From the NCBI GenBank assembly GCA_937868765.1, contig CALMNL010000003.1, forward strand, positions 496,001 to 560,000: a stretch of DNA of 64,000 bases, in the 5' to 3' direction. Source of the DNA: an uncultured Desulfatitalea sp. (lineage in GTDB: Bacteria; Desulfobacterota; Desulfobacteria; Desulfobacterales; Desulfosarcinaceae). The position numbers and the translations under genes are program-made. Positions 5,984 to 49,622 of this stretch are shown here, one piece after another. Within the stretch, counting starts at the first letter, position 1. Each line of letters begins with the position of its first letter. The notes beneath the pieces were generated by a model that was not told the origin of the DNA, made no database searches, and was given only the letters and a program-made list of their open reading frames with translations.

Positions 5984-6056
5984 GGGCCCATAGCTCAGTT
6001 GGTAGAGCCACCGGCTCATAACCGGTCGGTCCCTGGTTCGAGCCCAGGTGGGCCCA
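5984..6056 (+). tRNA. tRNA with CAU anticodon (Ile2 or elongator Met)
   Basis: The cloverleaf is complete. The acceptor stem is GGGCCCA/TGGGCCC, the D-arm is TAGCTCAGTTGGTAGAGC, and the anticodon stem ACCGG/CCGGT closes a CTCATAA loop with CAT at 6017-6019. The T-arm contains GGTTCGAGCCC. The 3' CCA is not encoded. The CTCATAA loop is more usual for the lysidine-modified tRNA-Ile(CAU) than for elongator Met, but the two cannot be separated by eye. It is not an initiator tRNA. Confidence 0.93.
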
Positions 6057-6116
6057 CTTCACCTCTTCCGATGCCGGCAAATGCCGCCGAAGGAAAGGCG
6101 GGAGTGCAAGATTCAA

Positions 6117-7856: not shown

Positions 7857-8228
<372 letters not shown>

Positions 8229-8340
8229 GCCGTTCGATTTCATTAATGCAGTCAGAAGTGGCGGTCTGCTGCCCGGATCTTAATGAGCTTTCAAAAAGGG
8301 CGGCGGCGCAGAAGCGGGGTGCAAAAAAAGAGGTGAACAG

Positions 8341-37796: not shown

Positions 37797-37883
37797 GCCG
37801 AAGTGGCGGAACTGGTAGACGCGCTAGGTTCAGGGTCTAGTGGGGGTTCCCTCGTGGGAGTTCGAGTCTCCCCTTCGGCACCA
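37797..37883 (+). tRNA. tRNA-Leu (CAG anticodon), 3' CCA encoded
   Basis: Class II tRNA with acceptor stem GCCGAAG/CTTCGGC and a D-arm (GCGGAACTGGTAGACGCGC). The anticodon loop is TTCAGGG with CAG at 37831-37833. A variable arm contains TGGGGGTTCCCTCGTGGG, and the T-arm contains GTTCGAGTCTC. Unlike the CAU tRNA in this window, its terminal CCA is encoded. Confidence 0.95.
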
Positions 37884-37961: not shown

Positions 37962-38714
37962 TTACTCCAGTCCGATGGTATCCATGGCCGCAAAGCGCGG
38001 CTCGTGCAATGGGATCAGGATATCCGCCATGGACTTGATCCTTACCAGGATGTCGTATGCCTCGTAGGCATTGACATGGGTGCCTGGCGGGATGACTTCC
38101 ATTTCCATGGCCGTGATCTCCTTGGGCGGGTAAAAATTTTGATCGATGGTGCAAAAACCGGTGATGATCGCCCTCCCTTTGGGGGTGGCCACTGCCACCG
38201 AAAGGCCGCCGGGGGTATGGGCCGGCGTGTGGAGCACCTCGATGCCAGGGAAGAGCTGCATATCGCCTGTCACGGTGCGAATCTGGCCGTTTTCTTCCAC
38301 ATCGCTGATATAGTCTTCCAGGTATCGGAAATCCAGGGGATGCGGATTGTGGATCCGGGCCAGCTCTTTTTCATGCAGGTAAATCTCTGCGCGATCGCAC
38401 TTGAAATCGTTCTCGCAGTGATCGTTGTGCAAATGGGTGTGAATGATCACGTCGATCTGTGCGGGCGTCAATCCCCAACGGGCCAGCCCCTGCTCGAAAG
38501 TGTAGATCTTCCCGCCGATGGCTGCTTCCCGATCCGGAGATTGGATAGGGCTCATTTCTCCGCTATCCACCAGTATTTTGCGGTCACCGCCCTCCAGATA
38601 CCAGCAATATATGGGGATAGCATACGGTTTGCCCTGACCGTACTGATAGGTCATCATCGATTGGTCGAAGAGCTTGGTACCCATGACGATAGGATGTATG
38701 GTGTATTGCGTCAC
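37962..38714 (-). CDS. Metallo-beta-lactamase-fold hydrolase (lactonase-like)
   Basis: I set the start at the GTG at 38714 because AGGAGG lies 6 bases before it, giving 250 residues; the longer frame to 38888 has no family sequence. The binuclear zinc motif HTHLHNDHCE is near residue 110, followed by HTPAHTPGGLSVAV and GFCTIDQNFYPP. The overall pattern is that of the N-acyl homoserine lactonase (AiiA-like) subfamily. The third metal ligand region reads GFCTID, where a bridging Asp is usual, so the exact ligand set is uncertain. Substrate unknown, and it stands alone. Confidence 0.8.
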   Translation of the reverse strand: MTQYTIHPIVMGTKLFDQSMMTYQYGQGKPYAIPIYCWYLEGGDRKILVDSGEMSPIQSPDREAAIGGKIYTFEQGLARWGLTPAQIDVIIHTHLHNDHCENDFKCDRAEIYLHEKELARIHNPHPLDFRYLEDYISDVEENGQIRTVTGDMQLFPGIEVLHTPAHTPGGLSVAVATPKGRAIITGFCTIDQNFYPPKEITAMEMEVIPPGTHVNAYEAYDILVRIKSMADILIPLHEPRFAAMDTIGLE

Positions 38715-38980
38715 GATTGGCCTCCTGTCTATTTTCTGGCCCTGATAAATCTTGAGGCACATGGAGCCGGAACCCGTCGATTCCATAACATGGCATTTCC
38801 AGAGGCGTAAAGCTCTGCATGGGATTGGCGGCCGCCGGGACGATCCATGATCGCAATGTGTTTTAAAAAAGCGGTTGATCAAATCCAAACACCGGGGCTA
38901 AAAAACAAGTTTTGGATATCAACGCGCACCGGCGCAAAAATCCCGGTCCATAGCAGTCCCGGCAGCGGAGCATCGAGCAA

Positions 38981-39571
38981 ATGAACTACCTGGCCCACCT
39001 ATACCTCGCCGACACGACCCATGATTCCCTCGTCGGTCAGCTGTTGGGAGATTTCGTCAAAGGTGCCGCCGTTCAGGACTTCGATACAGCTATACAAGGC
39101 GCCATTCGCTTTCATCGCAAGATCGACAGCTTTTCCGACGCCCACGCGCTCACCCGTGCCAGCCGCAATCGTATCAGCCCTCAATGGCGCCGCTTTGCAG
39201 GCATCATGGTGGATGTGTGCTACGATCATTTCCTGGCCAGAAGCTGGGGGCGTTTTTCAGACGAAGCGTTGCCGGACTTTGTACGGCGAATGTATGGGCA
39301 CCTGCAGGAAAACCGCAGCCGGCTCCCCGAAGCAGCTGAACGGGTTCTCAACCGGATGGTATTCTATGACTGGCTGGGGAGCTACGGTGATTTGAATAAG
39401 GTGGGGATCGCCCTGGACCGTGTTGCCAGTCGTCTCACGCGGGGTGAACGTTTTTTAGGCGCGATCGCCGATATCCGGGCCAACTATCGGGCGCTGCAAA
39501 ACGATTTTTTGGCTTTTTTCCCGGACCTGATCGATTTTGCGCGCACCTTCAAACAGAACGAGAAAGGATAG
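38981..39571 (+). CDS. ACP phosphodiesterase family protein (AcpH-like)
   Basis: The 196-residue helical protein starts MNYLAHLYLADTTHDSLVGQ and contains GDFVKG, IRFHRKIDSFSDAH and FAGIMVDVCYDHFLARSW. These are the metal-binding HD-like motifs of the AcpH/DUF479 family, which removes 4'-phosphopantetheine from acyl carrier protein. The gene for an enoyl-CoA hydratase/isomerase-like protein follows three bases after its stop, so the two form one unit. Confidence 0.88.
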   Translation: MNYLAHLYLADTTHDSLVGQLLGDFVKGAAVQDFDTAIQGAIRFHRKIDSFSDAHALTRASRNRISPQWRRFAGIMVDVCYDHFLARSWGRFSDEALPDFVRRMYGHLQENRSRLPEAAERVLNRMVFYDWLGSYGDLNKVGIALDRVASRLTRGERFLGAIADIRANYRALQNDFLAFFPDLIDFARTFKQNEKG

Positions 39572-39574
39572 CCC

Positions 39575-40276
39575 ATGGGCATGTACGAGTACGTTGTGGA
39601 CGAAAATGTAGCCATACTGACCATGAACAATGGTGAGAACCGCTTTAATTTCGATTCGATCGAAGCATTTTTAGCCGTCCTGGATCAGATCGAATCAGAG
39701 AGCAGGGTCAACGCCCTGGTGACCACCAGTTCCCACCAAAAAATCTGGTCCAACGGCATCGACCTGGATTGGCTCCTGCCGGCGCTTCAAAAAGAGGGGG
39801 AAGGCCTGATGGACCGTTTCCGATGTGAAATGTTCACCCTTTTCAAGCGGGTGCTCACGTTTCCGATGCCCACCGTGGCGGCTTTGAACGGGCACGCCTT
39901 CGCCGGCGGCGCCTTTTTGTCGTTTGCCCATGACTTCCGTTTCATGCGCTCGGACCGCGGATGGCTTTGTCTTCCCGAAGTAGATCTGGGGATTCCCCTG
40001 GGACAGGTCTTTCTGGCTTTCAGCAAGCGCGTGCTGCCCATGCACTTGCTCGAGGAAATGGAGTACACCGGTCGTCGGCTCACGGCTGCCGAGTGCGAAT
40101 CATACCACATCATCAGAAAGGCCTGTCCGCTGGAGCAGCTTATGACCGAGGCGGTGGGATTCGCCAAGTCACTGAACAAACGGCGGGATATCATTCAAAA
40201 GATGAAACTGGAAACCGGCCTGCCGATCATCAAAGTCATCGATGAAACCATTGCGGCGCATTCGAAATCCTCCTGA
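39575..40276 (+). CDS. Enoyl-CoA hydratase/isomerase family protein
   Basis: The 233-residue crotonase-fold protein is somewhat shorter than the usual ~260. The oxyanion-hole region is GHAFAGGAFLSFAHDFRFMR. A single glutamate is present in LCLPEVDLGIPLGQVF, the arrangement found in delta3,delta2-enoyl-CoA isomerases rather than in hydratases, which use two. This suggests isomerisation of a double bond in an acyl-CoA. It follows acpH by three bases and precedes the GntR/glycyl-radical cluster by ~190 bases. Assignment to a specific pathway is not possible. Confidence 0.85.
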   Translation: MGMYEYVVDENVAILTMNNGENRFNFDSIEAFLAVLDQIESESRVNALVTTSSHQKIWSNGIDLDWLLPALQKEGEGLMDRFRCEMFTLFKRVLTFPMPTVAALNGHAFAGGAFLSFAHDFRFMRSDRGWLCLPEVDLGIPLGQVFLAFSKRVLPMHLLEEMEYTGRRLTAAECESYHIIRKACPLEQLMTEAVGFAKSLNKRRDIIQKMKLETGLPIIKVIDETIAAHSKSS

Positions 40277-40402
40277 TGCCGGTTCCCTCGCCTTGGCGCC
40301 GGGGCCGTGCCGCACGCTGGTGACGAAGCGGCATGGCCCTGGTGGAACATTCCGAGACATTCTATCTTGCTGAAACGTAGCAGGAATTTGGAATTACAAC
40401 GA

Positions 40403-40432
40403 TTGACAACAACAAACGGTTTTTGGTAAATT
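40403..40432 (+). promoter_or_regulatory. Promoter of the GntR-glycyl radical operon
   Basis: TTGACA at 40403-40408 is perfect. TAAATT at 40427-40432 matches four -10 positions with an 18-base spacer. The PdhR-like operator overlaps its downstream edge, which fits repression. Confidence 0.55.
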
Positions 40433-40442
40433 GGTATTACCA
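40429..40442 (+). promoter_or_regulatory. PdhR/LldR-like operator
   Basis: AATTGGTATTACCA contains the inverted half-sites TGGT and ACCA with a 3-base centre, as in the binding boxes known for PdhR-type GntR/FCD regulators. It overlaps the promoter 22 bases before the GntR start codon, suggesting autoregulation and control of the glycyl radical enzyme. Confidence 0.6.
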
Positions 40443-40464
40443 CCAGCCATGATCGGGGTAAGCC

Positions 40465-41184
40465 ATGCTCGCACTGCTGCAACCTATCAAGAACGAATGC
40501 CTGAAAGAGATCTGCGCCGGACGTCTCGAAGAGTTGATTCTATCTGGCGAAGTGCCTGTCGGTCACAAATTGCCACCGGAAAGGGAACTGGCCCGACAAT
40601 TGGGCGTCAGCCGACCAGTGGTTCACGAAGCCCTGCTCGAATTGGCCAATAAGGGCTTGATCGCCCTTGTGCCGCGGGTGGGGGCAGTGGTCAACGATTT
40701 CCGCAAAGAGGGATCCGTCGCGCTGCTGACCTCCCTGCTCAAGTATCAGGGGGCGCTGGCACCCAACCTGCTGGAGGGCCTTTTGGCCATGCGGATCTTG
40801 TTCGAGGTGGAGACTGCCCGTCTGGCCGCGATCCACCGCACCGATGCGCAAAACCAGGAAATGCGGGAATTGATCGTCTCCGAAGAGCAAAGCGAGCCCA
40901 CCGATATCGCACGGCTCACGGCCCTGGACTTCGACTTCCATCTCCTGGTGGCCATGGCCAGCGGCAATCCAACCTATCCGCTGCTGCTCAACTCGTTCAA
41001 GCCGGTCTACACCAATCTGTCAGGACAATTTTTCAAGGATTCGACGGTGGTGCCCACCGTGATCGGTTTCCACCGTGACCTGGCCGATGCCATCAAAAAA
41101 CAGGACGACCAACTGGCCATTGCCGTCATGCGCTGCCTGCTCGCCCATGGGGAAGAGCATTTGCGTGGCGAAGCGGCGCTGTGA
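40465..41184 (+). CDS. GntR-family regulator with FCD domain
   Basis: The 239-residue protein has an N-terminal winged helix-turn-helix (GHKLPPERELARQLGVSRPVVHEALLEL) and a C-terminal FCD ligand-binding domain with DFDFHLLVAMASGNP and a later FHRDLADAIKK, where the metal-binding histidines lie. FCD regulators sense carboxylates or acyl-CoA-like metabolites. It lies 21 bases upstream of the glycyl radical enzyme gene. GGGGTAAG is a modest ribosome site. By context it should control the glycyl radical cluster. Confidence 0.9.
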   Translation: MLALLQPIKNECLKEICAGRLEELILSGEVPVGHKLPPERELARQLGVSRPVVHEALLELANKGLIALVPRVGAVVNDFRKEGSVALLTSLLKYQGALAPNLLEGLLAMRILFEVETARLAAIHRTDAQNQEMRELIVSEEQSEPTDIARLTALDFDFHLLVAMASGNPTYPLLLNSFKPVYTNLSGQFFKDSTVVPTVIGFHRDLADAIKKQDDQLAIAVMRCLLAHGEEHLRGEAAL

Positions 41185-41205
41185 CGGAAGAAGGAGCTTT
41201 TGAAA

Positions 41206-43725
41206 ATGCAAAGGGCCTTCGTTCCAAAGGTCGGGGTTGAACCGGAACCGCCCCCGCCTCTCTCGCCCCGGATCCAATGGCTGCGGGACTATTATTTCAA
41301 AGGCACTCAGCGAACCTGGAATAACGAATTCACTGCCTGGACTACCGGCACGCCCTGGGATTTGCTCTTTAACGAGATGACCTACTACATCGTGCCGGAA
41401 ACCTACCCGCTGCTCCAGACCATGGGCGGATCCTTCCTGCAGGCCGCCCGTCCCGTGCGACTGTCCGATCATTTCTGGTCCCTGAGCCTGGTGGAGCGGC
41501 GTGCCTGGTTCGTCAAGCAGGTCATGGTCCACCACGTCCCCAAGGAGGTGCTGCCGGGGGACCTCATCGCCGGCGCCCGATTCAATGTGCAAACATCCAT
41601 GTGCCTGACTCGCCAGGAGCGCAGGCAATACGACCGTCTGGTAACCGGCCGGCACGGCGTCCGTCAGCAGGTGCTATGGTTCCACAATCATGGCTACGGC
41701 AACGCCGGCGCCACCAGCGGCCACCTGATTCCCGACCATGTCCGAGCCCTGCGCCTGGGTTGGCAGGGCATCCACGCCGATCTGCATGCGCGCTACCGCG
41801 AACTGGAGCCGGACGAGCAGCGCGGTTCCATGGGCGCGCAACTGGGAGCGATGATCACCGCCGCTTCCATGGCCAGGGAAGTGGCCGCCGGCTACGCGGC
41901 CTTGTGTCGACGCATGGCCGCAGCCGGCGACGACGGACGGCGGCGGAGCGAGTTGGTGCAGATGGCAGCCAACCTGGAACGCGTGCCCTGGCTGCCGTCC
42001 AGGACCTTCTGGGAGGCCGTTCAAGCCTTGTGGATCAACCACATGCTGGTGATGAGCGACGAAAATTATCCAGGCCCAGGCGTCTCGTTCGGCCGCATCG
42101 ACCAATATCTGCTGCCCTACTGGGAGTACTCGCTGGCCCATGGCATGGACCGCGAGTTCGGCAAAGAGATTCTCAAATGCTTCTGGATTCATTGCAACAC
42201 GGCCTATGACGCCATGATCCGCAACGGAAACCAGGGCATCACCGCCGGTTTCGGTCAGCTGATCACCCTTTCCGGCCTGGGGCCGGATGGCAGGGATATG
42301 ACCAACGATCTGACCTATGCCATCCTGGAAGTGATCGACGAAATGAGCCCCATTTTGGAGCCCAAGCCCAATGTGCGGCTGCACCGCAATTCTCCCGACC
42401 AACTGCTGGATCGCCTGGTGGCGATGATCAGCCGCAATGCAGGCGCCCCTTTTCTGCTCAATTTCGACGAACGGGCCATGGCCGGGCTCATGCGCCAGGC
42501 ACGCCTGGCCGGCGAGAGCGATTATATCCATGCCGGCAATGTCCACGACTATGCCCCTGTGGGTTGCCTGGAGAACACCATGGCGGGCAACGACCGCTCG
42601 GGCACGGTGGACAACAATCTCAATCTGCTCAAGGCGGTGGAACTGACGCTCACCGGCGGCAAGGACCTGCTGCCGTTTACCGACCCTTTGAGCGGCCGCA
42701 GCGCACGCATCCGCCAGGACGGGCCGACCACGGGTGATGCCGACCGATTTGAAACCTGGGAAGCGTTCTGGGACGCTTATGCCCGGCAGACCGCATTTAT
42801 TATCCAGCGCTGTGTGGATCTTTACGAGCTTTCAGAATCGGTGCGCGCCCGTTTCTTCCCCACGCCCTATCTCTCTTGCCTGGTGACCGGTTGCGCTGAA
42901 AAAGCCCTGGATGTCACCCGGGGAGGGGCCCAAATCAACCATACCACCCTGGAGGCGGTCACCTTCGCCACCACCGTGGATGCCCTGCTGGCCGTCAAAT
43001 ACCTGGTGTACGACCGGAAGCGCTGCACCATGGCGCAATTGATTCAAGCCCTGCGCAACAACTGGGACGGTTTCGAGGTGCTGCGCGCCATGGCGCGCAA
43101 CAAGGCGCCCAAGTACGGCCGCGACGACGATACCGCCGACGAGATGGGCCGCCGGGTGATGGAGTTGTGGACCCGTGAAACCTGGAAGCACCGCACCCAC
43201 GCCACCGGCCGCCAATTCCGCCCCGGCATGCTCAGCTGGAACTATTGGGCCGGCGATGGCTTTCTGATGGCGGCCAGCGCCGATGGACGCAAACAGGGAC
43301 AGTTTCTTTCCAACGCCATCTGCCCCTCCAATGGCGCCGACATCTACGGGCCTACGGCCAACGCCAACTCCGTGGGCAAAGTACTCGGCGGTCGGGCGGC
43401 CGATGACCGCGGCGACTGGGAAAACTACTTGAACGCGCTGCCCAACGGCGCCAGCCACACCATCAGTTTCAATCCCGCCATCGTGCGCGATCCGGACCAT
43501 CGGGAGAAGTTCAAAGCCTTTTTGAAGGCGTATGCGCATAACGGCGGCACAGCGCTGCAGATCAATATGATCGATGCCGACCTATTGCGTGACGCCCAGC
43601 AGCACCCCCAGGAGTACCGCCACCTGCTGGTGCGGGTAACCGGCTACAATGCTTACTTCACCACCGTGGGCAAAGAACTGCAGGACGAAATCATTGCGCG
43701 GCTCACCCATTGCGCGCGCTCCTGA
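41206..43725 (+). CDS. Glycyl radical enzyme, substrate unassigned
   Basis: The 839-residue enzyme is of the pyruvate formate-lyase-like superfamily. The thiyl cysteine is C454 in APVGCLENTMAGND. The glycyl radical site is G813 in LLVRVTGYNAYF, close to the C-terminus as expected. The GCLE motif (Cys-x-Glu) is seen in dehydrating and decarboxylating members. The long N-terminal part (WLRDYYFKGTQRTWNNEF, later HNHGYGNAGATSGHLIPD) looks more like the benzylsuccinate-synthase/archaeal PflD branch than choline, glycerol or isethionate lyases. AAGGAG is 9 bases before ATG 41206. An activase follows. Oxygen-sensitive, cytoplasmic. Substrate unknown. Confidence 0.93.
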   Translation: MQRAFVPKVGVEPEPPPPLSPRIQWLRDYYFKGTQRTWNNEFTAWTTGTPWDLLFNEMTYYIVPETYPLLQTMGGSFLQAARPVRLSDHFWSLSLVERRAWFVKQVMVHHVPKEVLPGDLIAGARFNVQTSMCLTRQERRQYDRLVTGRHGVRQQVLWFHNHGYGNAGATSGHLIPDHVRALRLGWQGIHADLHARYRELEPDEQRGSMGAQLGAMITAASMAREVAAGYAALCRRMAAAGDDGRRRSELVQMAANLERVPWLPSRTFWEAVQALWINHMLVMSDENYPGPGVSFGRIDQYLLPYWEYSLAHGMDREFGKEILKCFWIHCNTAYDAMIRNGNQGITAGFGQLITLSGLGPDGRDMTNDLTYAILEVIDEMSPILEPKPNVRLHRNSPDQLLDRLVAMISRNAGAPFLLNFDERAMAGLMRQARLAGESDYIHAGNVHDYAPVGCLENTMAGNDRSGTVDNNLNLLKAVELTLTGGKDLLPFTDPLSGRSARIRQDGPTTGDADRFETWEAFWDAYARQTAFIIQRCVDLYELSESVRARFFPTPYLSCLVTGCAEKALDVTRGGAQINHTTLEAVTFATTVDALLAVKYLVYDRKRCTMAQLIQALRNNWDGFEVLRAMARNKAPKYGRDDDTADEMGRRVMELWTRETWKHRTHATGRQFRPGMLSWNYWAGDGFLMAASADGRKQGQFLSNAICPSNGADIYGPTANANSVGKVLGGRAADDRGDWENYLNALPNGASHTISFNPAIVRDPDHREKFKAFLKAYAHNGGTALQINMIDADLLRDAQQHPQEYRHLLVRVTGYNAYFTTVGKELQDEIIARLTHCARS

Positions 43726-43736
43726 AGGGTGGATCG

Positions 43737-44723
43737 ATGACGATCCTTGCGAACAACGCCTTGCCTTTGACGGCCCGTCTTCTGGAAATTCAACGCATGT
43801 CCACCGAGGACGGGCCGGGGCTGCGCACCACCATTTTTTTCAAAGGGTGCAGCCTCAAGTGCCGCTGGTGCCACAATCCGGAAAGTATTGCCGCCCATCC
43901 CCAGGTGATGTGGGTCGAAAACCGTTGCATCGGCTGCGGGACATGTGCGGAGCAGTGTCCGGAGGGCGCACTGACGCTCACTGGCCAAGGGATGGTTATC
44001 GACCGACAGGTGTGCCGCAACTGCAGCATCTGTGCCGAAGCATGCCCGACCGCCGCGCTCGAGCGGATGGGGAAAAAGTGGCGTATGGAAGATCTGCTCG
44101 TGGAGGTCCTGAAAGACAGGGCCTACTTCGATGCTTCGGGCGGTGGCGTGACGCTCTCGGGGGGTGAACCCGCCCTCCAGGTGCGCTTTGCGTCGGCCTT
44201 CCTCGAACGATTGCGGGAGCAGGGTGTGCACACCGCCCTGGATACCTGCGGGCTATATGAGGTCGGCATTTTGGAGCAGCTCATGCCGGTGACCGATCTT
44301 CTGCTGTATGACCTGAAGCTCATGGAACCCATGCGGCACCACAAGCTTACCGGACATGACAACGAGAGGATTCTGGACAACGCCATTGCTGCGGCCCGCC
44401 ATTTACGGCACCGCGCCGACGGCCGCCGGATGTGGATCCGCACGCCCATCATTCCCGGCGCCACCGATGGCCAGGAGAACATCATCGGCATCGGCCGCTT
44501 CATCGCCACTCGCCTGGAAGGCATGGTGAGCCGATGGGAATTGTGTGTCTTCAACAATCTTTGCGCAGACAAGTATCGACGCCTGGGGCTGGCGTGGCCC
44601 TATGCGGATTACCCCCTGCCGACCGCCCACCGCATGGAAAACCTGGCGGACATGGCGCGGGCATCGGGAGTGGATGCCGACATCGTGTGCTGGAGCGGCG
44701 CAACGGCCGTAAAAGGGGCGTAA
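43737..44723 (+). CDS. Glycyl radical enzyme activating enzyme (radical SAM)
   Basis: The 328-residue activase uses SAM and a [4Fe-4S] cluster to install the glycyl radical on its partner. The radical SAM motif CSLKCRWC is at the N-terminus. Two ferredoxin-type clusters follow (CIGCGTCAEQCP and CRNCSICAEACP), as in activases of non-PFL glycyl radical enzymes. GGGVTLSGGEPALQ is the SAM-binding GGE region. The ATG at 43737 with AGGGTGGA upstream is preferred to 43710, which overlaps the enzyme gene. Directly downstream of the enzyme gene, so the pairing is clear. Confidence 0.95.
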   Translation: MTILANNALPLTARLLEIQRMSTEDGPGLRTTIFFKGCSLKCRWCHNPESIAAHPQVMWVENRCIGCGTCAEQCPEGALTLTGQGMVIDRQVCRNCSICAEACPTAALERMGKKWRMEDLLVEVLKDRAYFDASGGGVTLSGGEPALQVRFASAFLERLREQGVHTALDTCGLYEVGILEQLMPVTDLLLYDLKLMEPMRHHKLTGHDNERILDNAIAAARHLRHRADGRRMWIRTPIIPGATDGQENIIGIGRFIATRLEGMVSRWELCVFNNLCADKYRRLGLAWPYADYPLPTAHRMENLADMARASGVDADIVCWSGATAVKGA

Positions 44724-44724
44724 A

Positions 44725-45567
44725 ATGCAAACCGGATTTGCTTTCGATGACCAAGCCATCCAGGCCACCGCTCCGGCCGAGAAGATCGGGCTGGTGGCCA
44801 CCGTCAGTCCTGAGGGACGGCCCCATCTGACATTGCTCACTTCCCTGCGTGCTGACCATGCGCATCGGCTCACCATCGGTGAGTTCTGCAAAGGTTCGAG
44901 CAAGACCCACATGCAGCAAAACCCAAGGGTGGGTTTTTTGATCATGACGCGCGATCGAAGCCTGTGGCGGGGCAAGGCCTGCTGGACCCATCTGCGACAA
45001 GAGGGGCCGGAGTACGAGCAGTACAATAACCTGCCCATGTTCCGCTACAACGCCTATTTCGGGATCAATACCGTTCATTACCTGGATCTGAAAGCCCTGA
45101 CGGCAAAGGAGAAGCTGCCCATGGGCGCCATCCTGACCGGAGCCCTGCGAACGCGCCTGGTCAAGGGCGCGCTGGCCGATGCCAATGGTGAGAAGATATT
45201 GAGCCCGTTTGCATATCGCCTGTTCAACCGGTTGGATACCCTCAAATTCATCGCCCATATCGACGAGGACGGGTATCCGCGCATCATCCCAATCATCCAA
45301 TGCCAATCCGCCGGTTACGGGCGGCTGGCGTTTACCATGAAACCTTTCAGCGACGAGCTCGAGCGCATCACCCAGGGGAGCGCCGTGGCCATCTTCGGGT
45401 TGACCATGACCATGGAAGATGTGCTGGTGCGCGGATGTTTCCGCAAGTCCAGGCACCGGCTTACACGACTGGGGGGTGTGACAATCGACTGGGTCTATAA
45501 CAGCATGCCCCCTTGCCATGGCCAGATTTATCCACCTATCGAATTGACGCCGATCATCGATTATTAG
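44725..45567 (+). CDS. Tandem FMN-binding split-barrel protein (PNPOx-like)
   Basis: The 280-residue protein appears to hold two pyridoxamine-phosphate-oxidase-like split barrels. The first is at residues ~15-150 (KIGLVATVSPEGRPHLTLLT, FCKGSSKTHMQQNPRVGFLI). The second is at ~175-270 (LKFIAHIDEDGYPRIIPIIQ). Members bind FMN, F420 or haem and act as reductases or oxidases. It starts one base after the activase stop, so it is part of the glycyl radical operon and may reduce or protect the pathway product. No membrane segment. Exact activity unknown. Confidence 0.78.
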   Translation: MQTGFAFDDQAIQATAPAEKIGLVATVSPEGRPHLTLLTSLRADHAHRLTIGEFCKGSSKTHMQQNPRVGFLIMTRDRSLWRGKACWTHLRQEGPEYEQYNNLPMFRYNAYFGINTVHYLDLKALTAKEKLPMGAILTGALRTRLVKGALADANGEKILSPFAYRLFNRLDTLKFIAHIDEDGYPRIIPIIQCQSAGYGRLAFTMKPFSDELERITQGSAVAIFGLTMTMEDVLVRGCFRKSRHRLTRLGGVTIDWVYNSMPPCHGQIYPPIELTPIIDY

Positions 45568-45621
45568 ACCAGTTCGAAGCGACCCATCCTTACGACTTGA
45601 CTTCACCGCCGATCCCATTTA

Positions 45622-45634
45622 TTTAGCATACAAA
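45622..45634 (+). promoter_or_regulatory. MarR operator-like site 1
   Basis: TTTAGCATACAAA lies 12 bases upstream of the marR start codon. The same 13-mer, with one difference, recurs between marR and the following oxidoreductase gene. The core is close to the MarR-type palindrome TTTG-n4-CAAA. Confidence 0.5.
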
Positions 45635-45646
45635 GGAAATGTCGCG

Positions 45647-46054
45647 ATGGGCTATGTCGATTGTATCGTCTTTCTACTGGCCAAAGCCAGCCAGAAGTCA
45701 CAGAATTTATTGAAGAACAGGCTCAAGCCGCTGGGATTGACCTCCGTGCAGGCCCTGGTATTGGAAGCACTCATGGAAGAGGATGGCTTGACCGCCGGCG
45801 AGATCGGCAAACGCCTGCTGTTGGACAATGCCACGGTCTCGGGAGTGCTCGATCGGCTGGCCGACGGCCAGTGGATCACTAAGCACAGCGATGCTGAGGA
45901 CAAGCGGGTGTTGCGTGTTTTTCTTGCCGTTAAGGCCAAGGAGATGGAGCCCCGATTAATTCATGACCGGAATGCGGCGAACGAGGAAATCCTGGCCGGA
46001 TTTACCATGGAAGAGCGAGTTGTCCTGAAACGTTTGTTGCGTGATTTTTTATGA
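45647..46054 (+). CDS. MarR-family transcriptional regulator
   Basis: The 135-residue winged-helix protein has the recognition region LTAGEIGKRLLLDNATVSGVL and the wing segment DAEDKRVLRVFLAVKAKEME (the DxRxxxV-type wing of MarR). AAAGGAAA precedes the start. It sits between the glycyl radical operon and a large Fe-S flavoprotein gene in the same direction. Near-identical sites lie upstream of it and of that gene, suggesting that it controls both. Ligand unknown; MarR proteins often sense phenolic or aromatic compounds. Confidence 0.88.
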   Translation: MGYVDCIVFLLAKASQKSQNLLKNRLKPLGLTSVQALVLEALMEEDGLTAGEIGKRLLLDNATVSGVLDRLADGQWITKHSDAEDKRVLRVFLAVKAKEMEPRLIHDRNAANEEILAGFTMEERVVLKRLLRDFL

Positions 46055-46061
46055 TCATTCA

Positions 46062-46074
46062 TTTTGCATACAAA
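46062..46074 (+). promoter_or_regulatory. MarR operator-like site 2
   Basis: TTTTGCATACAAA lies 49 bases before the start of the flavoprotein gene and matches site 1 at 12 of 13 positions. The inner TTTGCATACAAA is an imperfect palindrome. Confidence 0.5.
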
Positions 46075-46122
46075 CTATCATCCAACACGAACAAGCCAAC
46101 ATGATGAAGAGAAGGGGGATTT

Positions 46123-48126
46123 ATGCGCGATCCGTTGTTTGAGCCCATTAAGATCAACCGGCTGGAGGTGAAGAATCGCATCTACATGCCGGCCATGCAC
46201 ATGAACATGGCTCACAACTATGAGGTGACCGATCGGCTGGTTGAGTTCTATGCGGAGCGGGCCCGGGGAGGGGCCGGCATGATCGTGGTGGGCTATGCCA
46301 CGGTGGACGAACTCTCTGGAAACGTGATGAACATCGGCGCCCATAAAGACGAGTTCATTCCAGGCCTCGCCCGGCTGGCTGAGGCCATCAACGCCAACGG
46401 CGCGCGCTCGGCCGTGCAGATCAACCACGCCGGCCGCTACAATCATTCGATTTTCCTAAATGGTAAGCAGCCGGTGGCCCCTTCGGCCGTGGCCTCGCGC
46501 ATGACCCGCGAAACCCCCAAGGCGCTGACGGTGGAAGAGATCCAGGAGGTGGTGGATCATTTCGCCCAGGCGGCCCTGCGAGTGAAGAAAGCCGGTTACA
46601 GCGCCGTGGAAATCCTGAGCGGCACCGGTTATCTGATCAGTGAATTTCTCTCCCCCCTGACCAACAAACGCGAGGATCAGTACGGTGGAGATCTGGATAA
46701 CCGCATGCGGTTCGGGCTGGAAGTCATGCAGGCCATCCGCAAAACGGTGGGGGCAGATTATCCGGTCATCGTGCGCATGAACGGCAACGATTTCATGCCT
46801 GGTGGACAGGGACGGGTCGAATTGCAGGCTTACGCCCAGGCCCTGGTGGAAAAGGCAGGGGTCGATGCCCTGTGCATCAACGTGGGATGGCACGAGGCAC
46901 GGGTGCCCCAGATTATCACCGGTGTGCCCAGGGGCGTCTTCGCCTATCTGTCACGGGGCATCAAGGAGAAGGTGCGTGTGCCGGTGATCGCCAGCCATCG
47001 CATCAACGACCCCTATACGGCCAGGGAAATGATTGGCGACGGCATGTGCGACATGGTGGCCATGGGTCGCAGCCTGATTGCCGATCCCTTCCTGCCTGAG
47101 AAGGCGCGCTCAGGCCGGGACGACCAGATCGTGCACTGCATCGCCTGCGCCCAGGGCTGTTTCGACAATCTCTTCAAGCTCAAGGCCGTGGAGTGTCTGT
47201 GCAACCCCAAGGCCGGCAGGGAAAAAGAAACCCGAGCGGTGCCGGTGGCCCAGCCCAAGCGGGTGATGGTGATCGGCGGCGGTCCGGCTGGCATGAGCGC
47301 AGCCCTGGCAGCGGCCGAGCGCGGTCACAAGGTGACCCTGTATGAACAGAGCGACCGGCTGGGCGGACAACTGCATCTGGCCGGTGCGCCTCCGGGGCGT
47401 GAGGAATTCACCGTGCTGGCCCGCGATCTGGCCAAGCAGATCGCCCTCAGCCCGGTGACGGTGCGCCTCCAGCAGACCGTGGACGAGAAATTGCTCGATA
47501 CCGAAAAGCCCGACACCGTCATCGTGGCCACCGGCGCCATGCCCGTCATGCCCCCGATCCCCGGTGCGGAGCTGCCTCATGTGGTACAGGCCTGGGATGT
47601 GCTGGCCAACAAAGTCCACGTGGGGCGACGGGTCGTGATCGTCGGCGGCGGCGCCGTGGGGGTGGAAACAGCCCTGTTCCTGGCCGAAAAAGGGACACTG
47701 TCCGGCGAGGCCCTCAAATTCCTGATGATCAATCGCGCCGAAACACCCGAAACGCTCTTCGAACTGGCCATCAAGGGCAGTAAAGAAATTCTTCTGATCG
47801 AAATGCTTGAGGCCATCGGCAAGGATATCGGTCGGTCCACCAAATGGTGCATGTTTCAAGATATGGATCGCACGGCTATCAAGCGGTTGACCGTTACCAA
47901 GGCGGTGGAGATCACTCCGGAGGGGATTACCATCGAAGGACCCGAGGGGCGTCAAAAAATTCCGGCCGATACTGTCGTAATGGCAGTGGGCGCAAAATCC
48001 CGGCAAGACCTGTGTGCCGTATTGGAAAGAAAAGGGATCGCCCACCAGAAGGTGGGTGACGCCAGGCAAGTGGCCCAGGCCATCGATGCCATCCACCAGG
48101 GCTTCCAGGCCGGCCAAGCTGCTTAG
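46123..48126 (+). CDS. Old-yellow-enzyme-type Fe-S/FAD oxidoreductase (enoate reductase-like)
   Basis: The 667-residue multidomain protein resembles 2,4-dienoyl-CoA reductase (FadH), BaiCD and clostridial enoate reductase. The N-terminal TIM barrel binds FMN (FEPIKINRLEVKNRIYMPAM, AVQINHAGRYNH, SPLTNKREDQYGGDLDNR). The [4Fe-4S] ligands are CIACAQGC plus a later CNP cysteine. The C-terminal FAD/NAD(P) module has MVIGGGPAGMSAALAAAE and VVIVGGGAVGVETAL. It would reduce activated C=C bonds with NAD(P)H. GGGGGG precedes the ATG. A MarR gene is upstream. The physiological substrate is unknown. Confidence 0.92.
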   Translation: MRDPLFEPIKINRLEVKNRIYMPAMHMNMAHNYEVTDRLVEFYAERARGGAGMIVVGYATVDELSGNVMNIGAHKDEFIPGLARLAEAINANGARSAVQINHAGRYNHSIFLNGKQPVAPSAVASRMTRETPKALTVEEIQEVVDHFAQAALRVKKAGYSAVEILSGTGYLISEFLSPLTNKREDQYGGDLDNRMRFGLEVMQAIRKTVGADYPVIVRMNGNDFMPGGQGRVELQAYAQALVEKAGVDALCINVGWHEARVPQIITGVPRGVFAYLSRGIKEKVRVPVIASHRINDPYTAREMIGDGMCDMVAMGRSLIADPFLPEKARSGRDDQIVHCIACAQGCFDNLFKLKAVECLCNPKAGREKETRAVPVAQPKRVMVIGGGPAGMSAALAAAERGHKVTLYEQSDRLGGQLHLAGAPPGREEFTVLARDLAKQIALSPVTVRLQQTVDEKLLDTEKPDTVIVATGAMPVMPPIPGAELPHVVQAWDVLANKVHVGRRVVIVGGGAVGVETALFLAEKGTLSGEALKFLMINRAETPETLFELAIKGSKEILLIEMLEAIGKDIGRSTKWCMFQDMDRTAIKRLTVTKAVEITPEGITIEGPEGRQKIPADTVVMAVGAKSRQDLCAVLERKGIAHQKVGDARQVAQAIDAIHQGFQAGQAA

Positions 48127-48152
48127 CAACCTGCTTTGATCTGGTTCGTCTT

Positions 48153-48188
48153 CCGACCGTTCCCGCTCTCAAGGGCGGGAACGGTCGG
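48153..48188. terminator. Strong 14-bp hairpin after the Fe-S flavoprotein gene
   Basis: CCGACCGTTCCCGC and GCGGGAACGGTCGG pair perfectly over 14 bp around an 8-base loop, 27 bases after the stop. No T-run follows on either strand, so it is either a factor-assisted terminator, an mRNA-stabilising hairpin, or part of the junction with the decayed gene beyond it. Confidence 0.55.
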
Positions 48189-48594
48189 CCCTCCGGCTGT
48201 AATTCTTCTGGTAAGAAGTCTTCACGATGGGGCAAACCCTGGGTTTTCCGGCGCTGATCATCTCGTCCGTCAACGTCGCAGCGGTGCGCATCGACACGCC
48301 GATCTTTTCCACCTGGCTGATGAGCCGGTCGATCAAATCCCCATGCCTCTTCTTGAGTGGCGCCTTGCAGGCATAGTGGATATTGCCGCCGGCCGTGGAT
48401 GATCCAGGCCTTCTTGGGCGCAGATGTCGGAGACCGGGGATAAATCAACTCCTGTCCGGTTTCCGGATTGATGGCCCATCACTTGCTTTGCCTCGCTGGC
48501 CTAAAGTCGTTCCCATGGGGGGCATTACGGCGCGATTTGGAATCATGGTATTCTTAATTGTAATGGGTGATAACAGGACATTAAGTTGACTCAT
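48186..48594 (-). pseudogene. Remnant of a second old-yellow-enzyme/FAD reductase
   Basis: The minus strand holds fragments of a reductase like the intact one upstream. From 48594 it reads MSQLNVLLSPITIKNTMIPN, then AVMPPMGTTLGQ and GKASD, the N-terminus of the FMN barrel. After ~40 residues the family sequence stops. It resumes in another frame as NPETGQELIYPRSP and APKKAWIIHG, the linker to the FAD domain. A further frame change gives GGNIHYACKAPLKKRHGDLI and QVEKIGVSMRTAATLTDEMI, the next FAD-domain piece. Some 330 residues are missing and frames are broken, so it cannot make a working enzyme. AGGAGGATTCG precedes the old start. Confidence 0.75.
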
Positions 48595-48722
48595 CGAATC
48601 CTCCTTCAGAATTGATTCCACACATGTTAGAAAAAAATTGAGATTAGAGCGCAATATGGATTATCGCATGCTGCATGACATGATTCAGGCCGCCGACAAT
48701 GGCGGAGAAAGGTACGAAAAAG

Positions 48723-49622
48723 ATGAACACCGAGAATTCACACTTCGATCACAGGTTTGCAGATGTAAATGGCATCCGGTTGCACTATGCTTCTGCGGGG
48801 CAGGGAGAATTGATCCTCTTTGTGCATGGATTCCCGGAATTCTGGGCCGCCTGGGAGAATCAGCTGGAGACCTTCGGTAAGAGCCGACAGGCCGTCGCAC
48901 TGGATTTGCGGGGCTTCAACCTCTCTTCCAAACCCGCCGATCCCCGGCAGTACCATATCAAGCTGCTGGTGGAAGATCTGCGTGGACTCATGACACATCT
49001 TGGCCATCGTCGGATGGTCCTGGTGGCCCATGACTGGGGAGGCGGGGTGGCGTGGGCGTTTGCCAACCGCTACCCTGAATGCGTAGATAAGCTGGTGATA
49101 ATCAATTCGCCGCACCCAGTGATTTTCGCCCGCGAGTTGTTGCACAATCCGGAACAGAGGCGTGCCAGCGCCTATATGAACGTGTTCCGATCGCCCGATG
49201 CCGAAAAGATTTTGTCCGCCGATGGTTACAGCTACCTCACCGACATCCTGTTCGGCTGGGGCAGCCAGTGGCGCATCACGCCCGAAATGCGCCAACGATA
49301 TATCGAAGCCTGGTCCAGGCCCGGAGCGCTCACCGGCGGGTTGAATTATTACCGGATTTCTCCCCTTCACCCGCCGTTGTCCGAAGCCGAAGAGGCAAGC
49401 ATACGCCAGGTAGCTGAGGCACCGGCCAAAGCTTTTTCAGTCTCGGTTCCCACCTTGGTCATCTGGGGGGAAAAGGATGAGGCCTTGCTTGTGGGCAACC
49501 TGAACGGTCTAGAACAATTCGTGGAGACATTGACCCTGCGACGTATCCCCGAGGCTACTCACTGGTTGGTTCACGAACAGCCCGAAAGAGTCAATGGATA
49601 TATCCGTTCGTTTGTCGATTAG
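48723..49622 (+). CDS. Alpha/beta hydrolase, epoxide-hydrolase-like
   Basis: The 299-residue alpha/beta hydrolase has the oxyanion motif FVHGFPEFWAAW and the nucleophile elbow VAHDWGGGVAWA, with aspartate as nucleophile. This is characteristic of epoxide hydrolases and haloalkane dehalogenases; HGFPE favours the epoxide-hydrolase branch. The acid is probably in WGEKDEALL and the histidine in EATHWLVHEQPERV. The ATG at 48723 is preceded by GGAGAAAGG; an in-frame ATG at 48699 is less likely. It may belong to the neighbouring catabolic cluster. Copy C of the dispersed repeat begins right after its stop. Confidence 0.88.
   Translation: MNTENSHFDHRFADVNGIRLHYASAGQGELILFVHGFPEFWAAWENQLETFGKSRQAVALDLRGFNLSSKPADPRQYHIKLLVEDLRGLMTHLGHRRMVLVAHDWGGGVAWAFANRYPECVDKLVIINSPHPVIFARELLHNPEQRRASAYMNVFRSPDAEKILSADGYSYLTDILFGWGSQWRITPEMRQRYIEAWSRPGALTGGLNYYRISPLHPPLSEAEEASIRQVAEAPAKAFSVSVPTLVIWGEKDEALLVGNLNGLEQFVETLTLRRIPEATHWLVHEQPERVNGYIRSFVD

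Follow-up and report, generated by a model that had tools for sequence, protein, structure and literature searches.

A conserved glycyl radical enzyme operon with a tandem split-barrel partner, set apart from the characterised groups tested, in an uncultured Desulfatitalea

Introduction

Some of the most demanding reactions of anaerobic carbon cycling are catalysed by glycyl radical enzymes (GREs), many groups of which have no known substrate. Here we describe a GRE operon from an uncultured Desulfatitalea sp., found in a window of 64,000 nucleotides (the whole stretch analysed, positions 496,001 to 560,000 of contig CALMNL010000003.1 in assembly GCA_937868765.1). It encodes a GntR regulator, the enzyme itself (GRE1), an activase and a tandem split-barrel protein (SPB).

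By sequence search of the PDB, the closest solved GREs are HypD, A. fulgidus PFL2, CutC and the B12-independent glycerol dehydratase (GD), followed by the weaker matches HplG and YbiW. A Cys-x-Glu (CXE) motif in the Cys loop is given as a conserved feature of GRE eliminases in PMC7077986 and PMC8473560, the latter of which also puts His160 of HypD at a shared substrate-contacting site. The portions of the open-access literature reached by full-text search contained no description of the GRE1 family together with its split-barrel partner. Both the operon and the separation of GRE1 from the GRE groups tested are solid, and the best reading of them is a new eliminase-type group of GREs with an obligate flavoprotein accessory.

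Results

GRE1 forms a sequence group of its own

Open reading frames (ORFs) and Pfam agree with the gene set of the original prediction: GntR regulator, GRE, activase and split-barrel protein. GRE1 belongs to the GRE superfamily, as both PF02901 (PFL-like, 387 bits over residues 172-681) and PF01228 (Gly_radical, 73 bits) score over their cut-offs and C454 and G813 are invariant. Numbered from the ATG at 41206 (a TTG at 41200 is an alternative start), C454, E456 and G813 stand where they had been predicted and do not vary in 90 close rows (89 distinct) or in 8 distant ones.

No characterised group among those tested claims the enzyme. GRE1 falls under every NCBIfam equivalog cut-off scanned, the best being TIGR01774 (395 bits against a cut-off of 678). 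The other models gave, score against cut-off, 359/1100 for HypD (NF043068), 343/1000 for HpsG, 341/1000 for HpfG, 298/1050 for CutC, 262/1109 for the formate C-acetyltransferase PRK09983, 218/1100 for IAD, 164/1150 for HPAD and 73/994 for PFL1. The view of this locus as a GRE operon without an assigned substrate holds.

In a tree of 27 rows, with seven solved GREs among the references and with HPAD, IAD, PhdB, HpsG, HplG and YbiW-type enzymes left out, the GRE1 family makes a clade of its own on a long stem (support 100/100), apart from solved HypD, GD, CutC, IslA, BSS and MasD. Its catalytic region splits from the BSS/MasD branch, again at 100/100, which leaves GRE1 among the eliminase references; its branching order relative to them is not settled. 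BSS and MasD lack a Glu at the CXE site, whereas GRE1 has E456, and GRE1 is accordingly no fumarate-adding enzyme by this mark. The likeness to the BSS/PflD branch that had been proposed for the N-terminal half found no support: a PDB search with the first 175 residues gave nothing better than E 1.1, and only stretches of 8 and 22 residues align with a MasD-like GRE (E 0.12 and 0.55). The absence of a CoA-transferase, a Bss-type small subunit and a microcompartment gene, on the other hand, was borne out among the ten proteins scanned at 37962-49622.

The active site combines eliminase marks with a pocket of its own

For the pocket map, 90 close GRE1 rows and 8 from subclade B were aligned with the seven solved GREs, a MasD-like GRE, three members of a second GRE family (GRE2, see below) and the other GRE of the source genome. 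C454, E456 and H173 are invariant throughout the GRE1 family. C454-L455-E456 constitutes the CXE motif of the eliminase class, and the original prediction rightly noted such a motif as common to lyases and decarboxylases. H173 aligns with His160 of HypD and His164 of GD.

The pocket positions mapped beyond CXE and H173 match no GRE eliminase compared. HypD, the best single-sequence PDB match (281 bits), shares the CXE motif and the His160 site, but its D278, S334, D339, F340, Y450 and T645 align with P291, T346, a gap, G350, N471 and W678 of GRE1, which thus has a proline in place of the catalytic D278 and nothing opposite D339, and lacks the residues that define HypD. The T346 position is N in 6 of the 8 subclade B rows, and the alignment is gapped around D339/F340, where a reading by hand could put F340 on F349. 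GD likewise shares CXE and the His164 site. Of H164, H281 and D447, which we take to be its key residues, only the first has its equivalent in GRE1 (H173); H281 is replaced by P and D447 by V468, while S282 and F333 align with G and T/N, so that GRE1 is not a glycerol dehydratase by these residues. It is GRE2, not GRE1, that keeps D447. In addition, 36 residues invariant in GRE1 are missing from all other rows compared, R464, N471 and W678-W681 among them.

The last of these, W678, Y680 and W681 (with N679), form an invariant aromatic stretch, and W678 aligns with the substrate-contacting T645 of HypD. Together with the Cys-x-Glu motif this would suit a decarboxylase of the HPAD/IAD/PhdB type. 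We consider such an enzyme improbable, given that the IAD and HPAD models score lower than that of HypD and that H173 aligns with the substrate-contacting His of both HypD and GD. That GRE1 performs elimination chemistry is, judging by its residues, a fair inference and somewhat more likely than not. What stands apart is, at the level of sequence, the group to which GRE1 belongs, as set against the groups tested; the original suggestion of a new system stood in so far as GRE1 lies outside those characterised groups (by NCBIfam cut-offs, the tree with seven solved GREs and the pocket map), and a new radical reaction is no more than possible.

GRE1 and SPB occur together

The original prediction had suggested comparing conserved neighbours across genomes. 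Among the 90 close GRE1 loci (89 distinct), 71 extend at least 2.5 kb downstream, and an activase is found in 69 and SPB in 70 of these; upstream, where 80 loci reach 1.2 kb or more, 55 have an adjoining GntR gene. The order GntR-GRE1-activase-SPB is common to dozens of genomes, so the cluster is evidently more than chance. Beyond these genes, no Pfam family is shared by over 3 of the 63 nearest downstream neighbours or 3 of the 52 upstream ones (E up to 1e-10, among the 25 commonest families listed; neighbours were picked by ORF length and some may be spurious).

We then compared whole genomes, using 96 from the order of the source organism (itself included) and 247 from its phylum, the two sets sharing some genomes. 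Close GRE1 is present in 13 of the 96: the source, 10 full-length copies (63-73% identity), one truncated where its contig stops (71%) and a single fragment (74%). G027 has a partial match of 53%, and the next complete matches reach at most 38%. Tandem SPB, searched by profile, occurs in 11 of these 13 genomes and in none of the other 83; in the two GRE1 genomes without it (G004, G024) the contig ends inside GRE1 or 523 bases after it.

In the phylum set (GRE1 at E up to 1e-130, tandem SPB above 45 bits), GRE1 and tandem SPB occupy the same 28 of 247 genomes with no exception. The SPB threshold was set after seeing the list and lies in a gap from 48 to 28 bits; with no more than 4 GRE1 and 9 SPB candidates scored in each genome, a copy may have escaped. 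Both genes share a contig in 26 of the 28 genomes; in the remaining two (G162, G208) they lie at contig ends, and a broken assembly would explain the separation. The 28 genomes span 12 family codes, and five of these families (f81, f82, f85, f90, f102) each have a sampled member in neither list. A diverged pair, subclade B, accounts for 11 of the 28; its GRE1 is 44-48% identical to that of the window (four compared) and its SPB scores only 48-146 bits.

Across a species-genome collection, 142 relatives of GRE1 were found, the best 80 of them 65-86% identical. By record title, these 80 belong to Deltaproteobacteria/Thermodesulfobacteriota, Chloroflexota, Spirochaetota, Bacteroidota and Poribacteria; three are titled Myxococcota/Myxococcales, three are ranked Pseudomonadota and five have no phylum. 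This makes at least five phyla by title, although titles of metagenome bins may be wrong. Judging by the same titles, many of these genomes come from sediments, digesters and groundwater. Transfer between phyla was considered and set aside. Under NCBI names, a FastTree tree built from the close rows calls for 17 changes of phylum; of the 17 rows ranked Myxococcota, however, 14 bear the title 'Deltaproteobacteria bacterium', and merging Myxococcota, Thermodesulfobacteriota and Pseudomonadota leaves 6 changes for five groups, which makes no case for transfer.

SPB is a tandem split barrel with one invariant loop

The 'double split-barrel' of the original prediction finds support in the AlphaFold2 model of SPB, which has two split barrels (pLDDT, the model confidence score, 86), and PF01243 (PNPOx_N, 31.3 bits against a cut-off of 28.1) places the protein in the PNPOx-like split-barrel superfamily. 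With VIA-align, the first half matches HupZ (Z 14.7, root-mean-square deviation (rmsd) 3.1, 118 residues aligned) and the FMN-bp of Desulfovibrio (Z 12.8, rmsd 2.6, 113 aligned), the second a split barrel that binds FAD (Z 10.8, rmsd 3.2, 101 aligned). The N-terminal half thus has the fold of HupZ, FMN-bp and F420-binding relatives; SPB differs from them in having two barrels in tandem and an invariant RYNxY loop, and in its co-occurrence with one GRE family.

Complete co-occurrence with GRE1 in the 247 genomes, and the position of SPB as the only conserved gene besides those of GntR and activase, would also be expected of a two-step pathway in which SPB, as a flavin-dependent reductase, acts on the GRE1 product. 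Reductases that bind F420 or FMN belong to this fold class, and there is a parallel in ProC, which takes up the product of HypD. Yet SPB is far less conserved than GRE1. Across the 75 subclade A and 11 subclade B rows of SPB, 21 positions, mostly Gly and Pro, are kept at a loose cut (85% of A and 70% of B); GRE1 keeps 160 under a stricter one (98% of its 90 A rows and all 8 of B). Invariant residues form a single run in SPB, R107-Y108-N109-x-Y111, present in 75/75 A and 11/11 B rows. Conservation limited largely to one loop and to Gly and Pro is unlike a substrate-binding enzyme, and split-barrel proteins adjoin fumarate-adding GREs too (see below). A reductase is possible but, in our judgement, rather unlikely.

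The loop lies in a model block of low confidence (62). Its commonest form, RYNAYF, is reminiscent of GYNAYF in the glycyl-radical loop of the GRE itself, and among 303,636 residues from other reading frames, of which many are probably not genes, the pattern YN[ASTC]Y[FTM] turns up a single time. As the comparison was made post hoc and the motif is common to other GREs, we regard the likeness as a lead only. It would be a long shot that SPB is the first of a new kind of GRE accessory, in which RYN[AST]Y mimics the glycyl-radical loop, docks where that loop moves and gates, protects or resets the radical, with distant single-domain versions serving fumarate-adding GREs likewise.

A third role for SPB would be that of electron donor to the activase, a dedicated replacement for flavodoxin. 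The FMN-bp match fits this, as does the usual position of SPB beside the activase gene; in G039, moreover, GRE1 has neither activase nor SPB downstream, and the two lie together on another contig (loci L030 and L129). Three loci (L048, L051, L060), however, have SPB after GRE1 with no activase gene between, two of which (L048, L060) end soon after; in G068, GRE1 and activase are together and SPB is elsewhere in the genome; and other GRE-activase pairs, in L035, L104 and L176, have no SPB match alongside. Dedicated electron transfer therefore seems unlikely to us, and the accessory role remains the leading guess of the three.

Split-barrel proteins adjoin other GREs

Single split-barrel proteins adjoin GRE activases in loci L126, L033 and L127. 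L126:4362-11556 is a MasD-like operon of the alkylsuccinate synthase type (GRE 736 bits to 9o8u), with the order GRE, two split-barrel proteins, activase and ATPase and with short Cys-rich ORFs upstream; the AAA-type ATPase is taken for a MoxR-type protein, GvpN-like at 52 bits. L033:7252-10378 holds a broken or misassembled relative of the subclade B GRE, an activase and a single-domain split-barrel gene. PMC12583861 places LssP in the limonenylsuccinate synthase (lss) operon and describes it as a putative pyridoxamine phosphate oxidase whose function is unclear, so that PNPOx-like split-barrel proteins are known from two operons of the MasD/BSS/limonenylsuccinate synthase kind. Because the MasD-like and lss enzymes add fumarate and do not eliminate, a role tied to GREs seems likelier than one tied to a particular substrate, and by this analogy it appears plausible.

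Second GREs accompany GRE1

After SPB, five loci (L075, L083, L088, L089, L095) carry a different GRE, GRE2; in the subclade B locus L142, GRE1 is preceded by a GRE2-type enzyme that shares 57-59% identity with the L075 and L083 copies. In the phylum set GRE2 (at least 60% identity, with no more than 4 candidates scored per genome, a threshold chosen after seeing the list, in a gap from 60 to 45%) occurs in 7 of 247 genomes, all seven among the 28 with GRE1 (p 1.2e-7, uncorrected); the match in G223 covers only part of its length. Around the unlinked copies in four genomes, no activase was found within the 2-7.5 kb read on each side, and the genes there yielded no pathway. GRE1 and GRE2 likely share a pathway, perhaps an activase; PMC11528403 offers a precedent for a single activase beside two radical enzymes.

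Our family search found one other GRE in the source genome, on another contig (L035:7664-10633; G000:C7:378669-381626). An SCP2 domain on its N-terminal extension of about 190 residues was considered and set aside as weakly supported (19.6 bits, below the cut-off of 21.3). Relatives of this enzyme (at least 46% identity) occur in 13 of the 96 order genomes, 8 of which have GRE1 (Fisher p 1e-5 for all 96 and 4e-4 for the 60 with any GRE match, both uncorrected), and L104 has one just upstream of its GRE1 operon.

Regulation, gene layout and neighbourhood

The palindrome TGGTNNNACCA, in many cases lengthened to TGGTGGTAATACCACCA, was found close to the GntR start in 47 of 58 loci (from 200 bases before to 120 after the beginning of the stop-to-stop frame), against 0.24 expected from shuffles; near the GRE frame start of 28 loci without adjacent GntR it was found in none. 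The copy of the window, at 40432-40442, is just upstream of GntR. In the whole genome the exact form TGGTNNTACCACCA has this one occurrence, and the backward-read control has three, so that place and conservation count here and rarity does not. Conserved at the GntR start, the palindrome fits a putative operator of a self-regulated operon. A wider GntR regulon was rejected, as the genome has no second exact TGGTNNTACCACCA site and in G223 the operator-like site is that of a different GRE. That GRE, with its activase, lies at L176:5325-9785 (G223:C6) beside a divergent GntR of its own; the locus has two TGGTNNNACCA sites, near the GntR start and between the two genes.

The four plus-strand genes occupy 40465-45567 with short gaps or overlaps, and from this spacing and the single operator-like site they are predicted to be read as one transcript (Table 1). 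The activase, which likely starts at an ATG around 43737 (judged by eye), has Radical_SAM and Fer4 matches in two stretches and exceeds the cut-off of TIGR02494 (304 bits against 174), the mark of a GRE-activating enzyme.

Table 1. Features of the GRE1 operon (window coordinates) and copies of GRE2 (locus coordinates).
Feature	Position	Strand	Basis
Probable GntR operator, TGGTATTACCA(CCA)	40432..40445	+	Palindrome conserved near GntR frame start
FCD-type GntR transcriptional regulator	40465..41184	+	Pfam PF00392, PF07729
Glycyl radical enzyme GRE1 (C454-L-E456, G813, H173)	41206..43725	+	PF02901, PF01228; conservation; own clade
GRE activase (radical SAM, two further 4Fe-4S motifs)	43710..44723	+	TIGR02494, Fer4, Radical_SAM
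Tandem split-barrel (PNPOx-like) flavin-type protein, SPB	44725..45567	+	PF01243; structural model; RYNxY loop
GRE2 copies	L142:9650-12136; L075:12416-14794		Second uncharacterised GRE family

Downstream of the operon lie a MarR regulator gene (45647-46054) and, following it, a gene for an OYE/BaiCD-like flavoenzyme (46123-48126; 530 bits against a cut-off of 825); in 2 of 63 loci the closest downstream pick is a gene of OYE type. A crotonase cluster is present in 8 of 93 loci (one pair being duplicate), four of which were scanned with Pfam together with that of the window. Crotonase, MarR, OYE-type flavoenzyme and hydrolase neighbours were all set aside as pathway partners; no further gene was seen to be conserved nearby. 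Elsewhere, the window contains an RNase P class A RNA (7858-8231, 329 bits) and tRNA genes for Met and Leu (5984-6057 and 37797-37883).

Discussion

The cluster suggests a new two-protein version of known radical chemistry. In the scheme that we prefer, the activase would put a radical on G813 of GRE1, from where, as in the rest of the superfamily, it would move to C454. E456 of the CXE motif and H173 may hold a hydroxyl group of the substrate, in which case GRE1 would most likely carry out a radical 1,2-elimination of the dehydratase or lyase type, on a small polar substrate other than those of HypD, GD, CutC and IslA. Tandem SPB, given its co-occurrence, would be an obligate partner of GRE1 rather than of the activase, an accessory flavoprotein that may dock on GRE1 through RYNxY and keep, rescue or gate the radical enzyme. 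Taken whole, as a self-contained GRE module with its own regulator, consisting of an eliminase and an obligate split-barrel accessory, this reading is tentative, with its chances close to but short of even.

Several points weigh against it. The decarboxylases HPAD and IAD likewise carry a Cys-adjacent Glu, according to PMC6181972, so elimination by GRE1 is not proven. The structural model of GRE1 is weak (mean pLDDT 72, below 50 at 453-469 and 677-690), and being weak around the pocket it was set aside for pocket geometry. Flavin binding by SPB is predicted from the fold alone, and HupZ, its best structural match, binds haem. The split-barrel proteins of L126 are remote from SPB (38.7 bits) and may have another role; the pattern in G039, with SPB beside the activase and not GRE1, speaks against a tie to the GRE alone; and the Fisher p of 1.5e-37 for the shared presence of GRE1 and SPB is uncorrected for ancestry.

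To our knowledge, an obligate flavoprotein partner would be a new feature for the GRE superfamily. Since many GRE1 genomes stem, by title, from sediments, digesters and groundwater, a single substrate assignment would annotate many genomes at once. The obligate SPB partner, if true, would also make the role of LssP-like proteins in hydrocarbon-activating operons testable.

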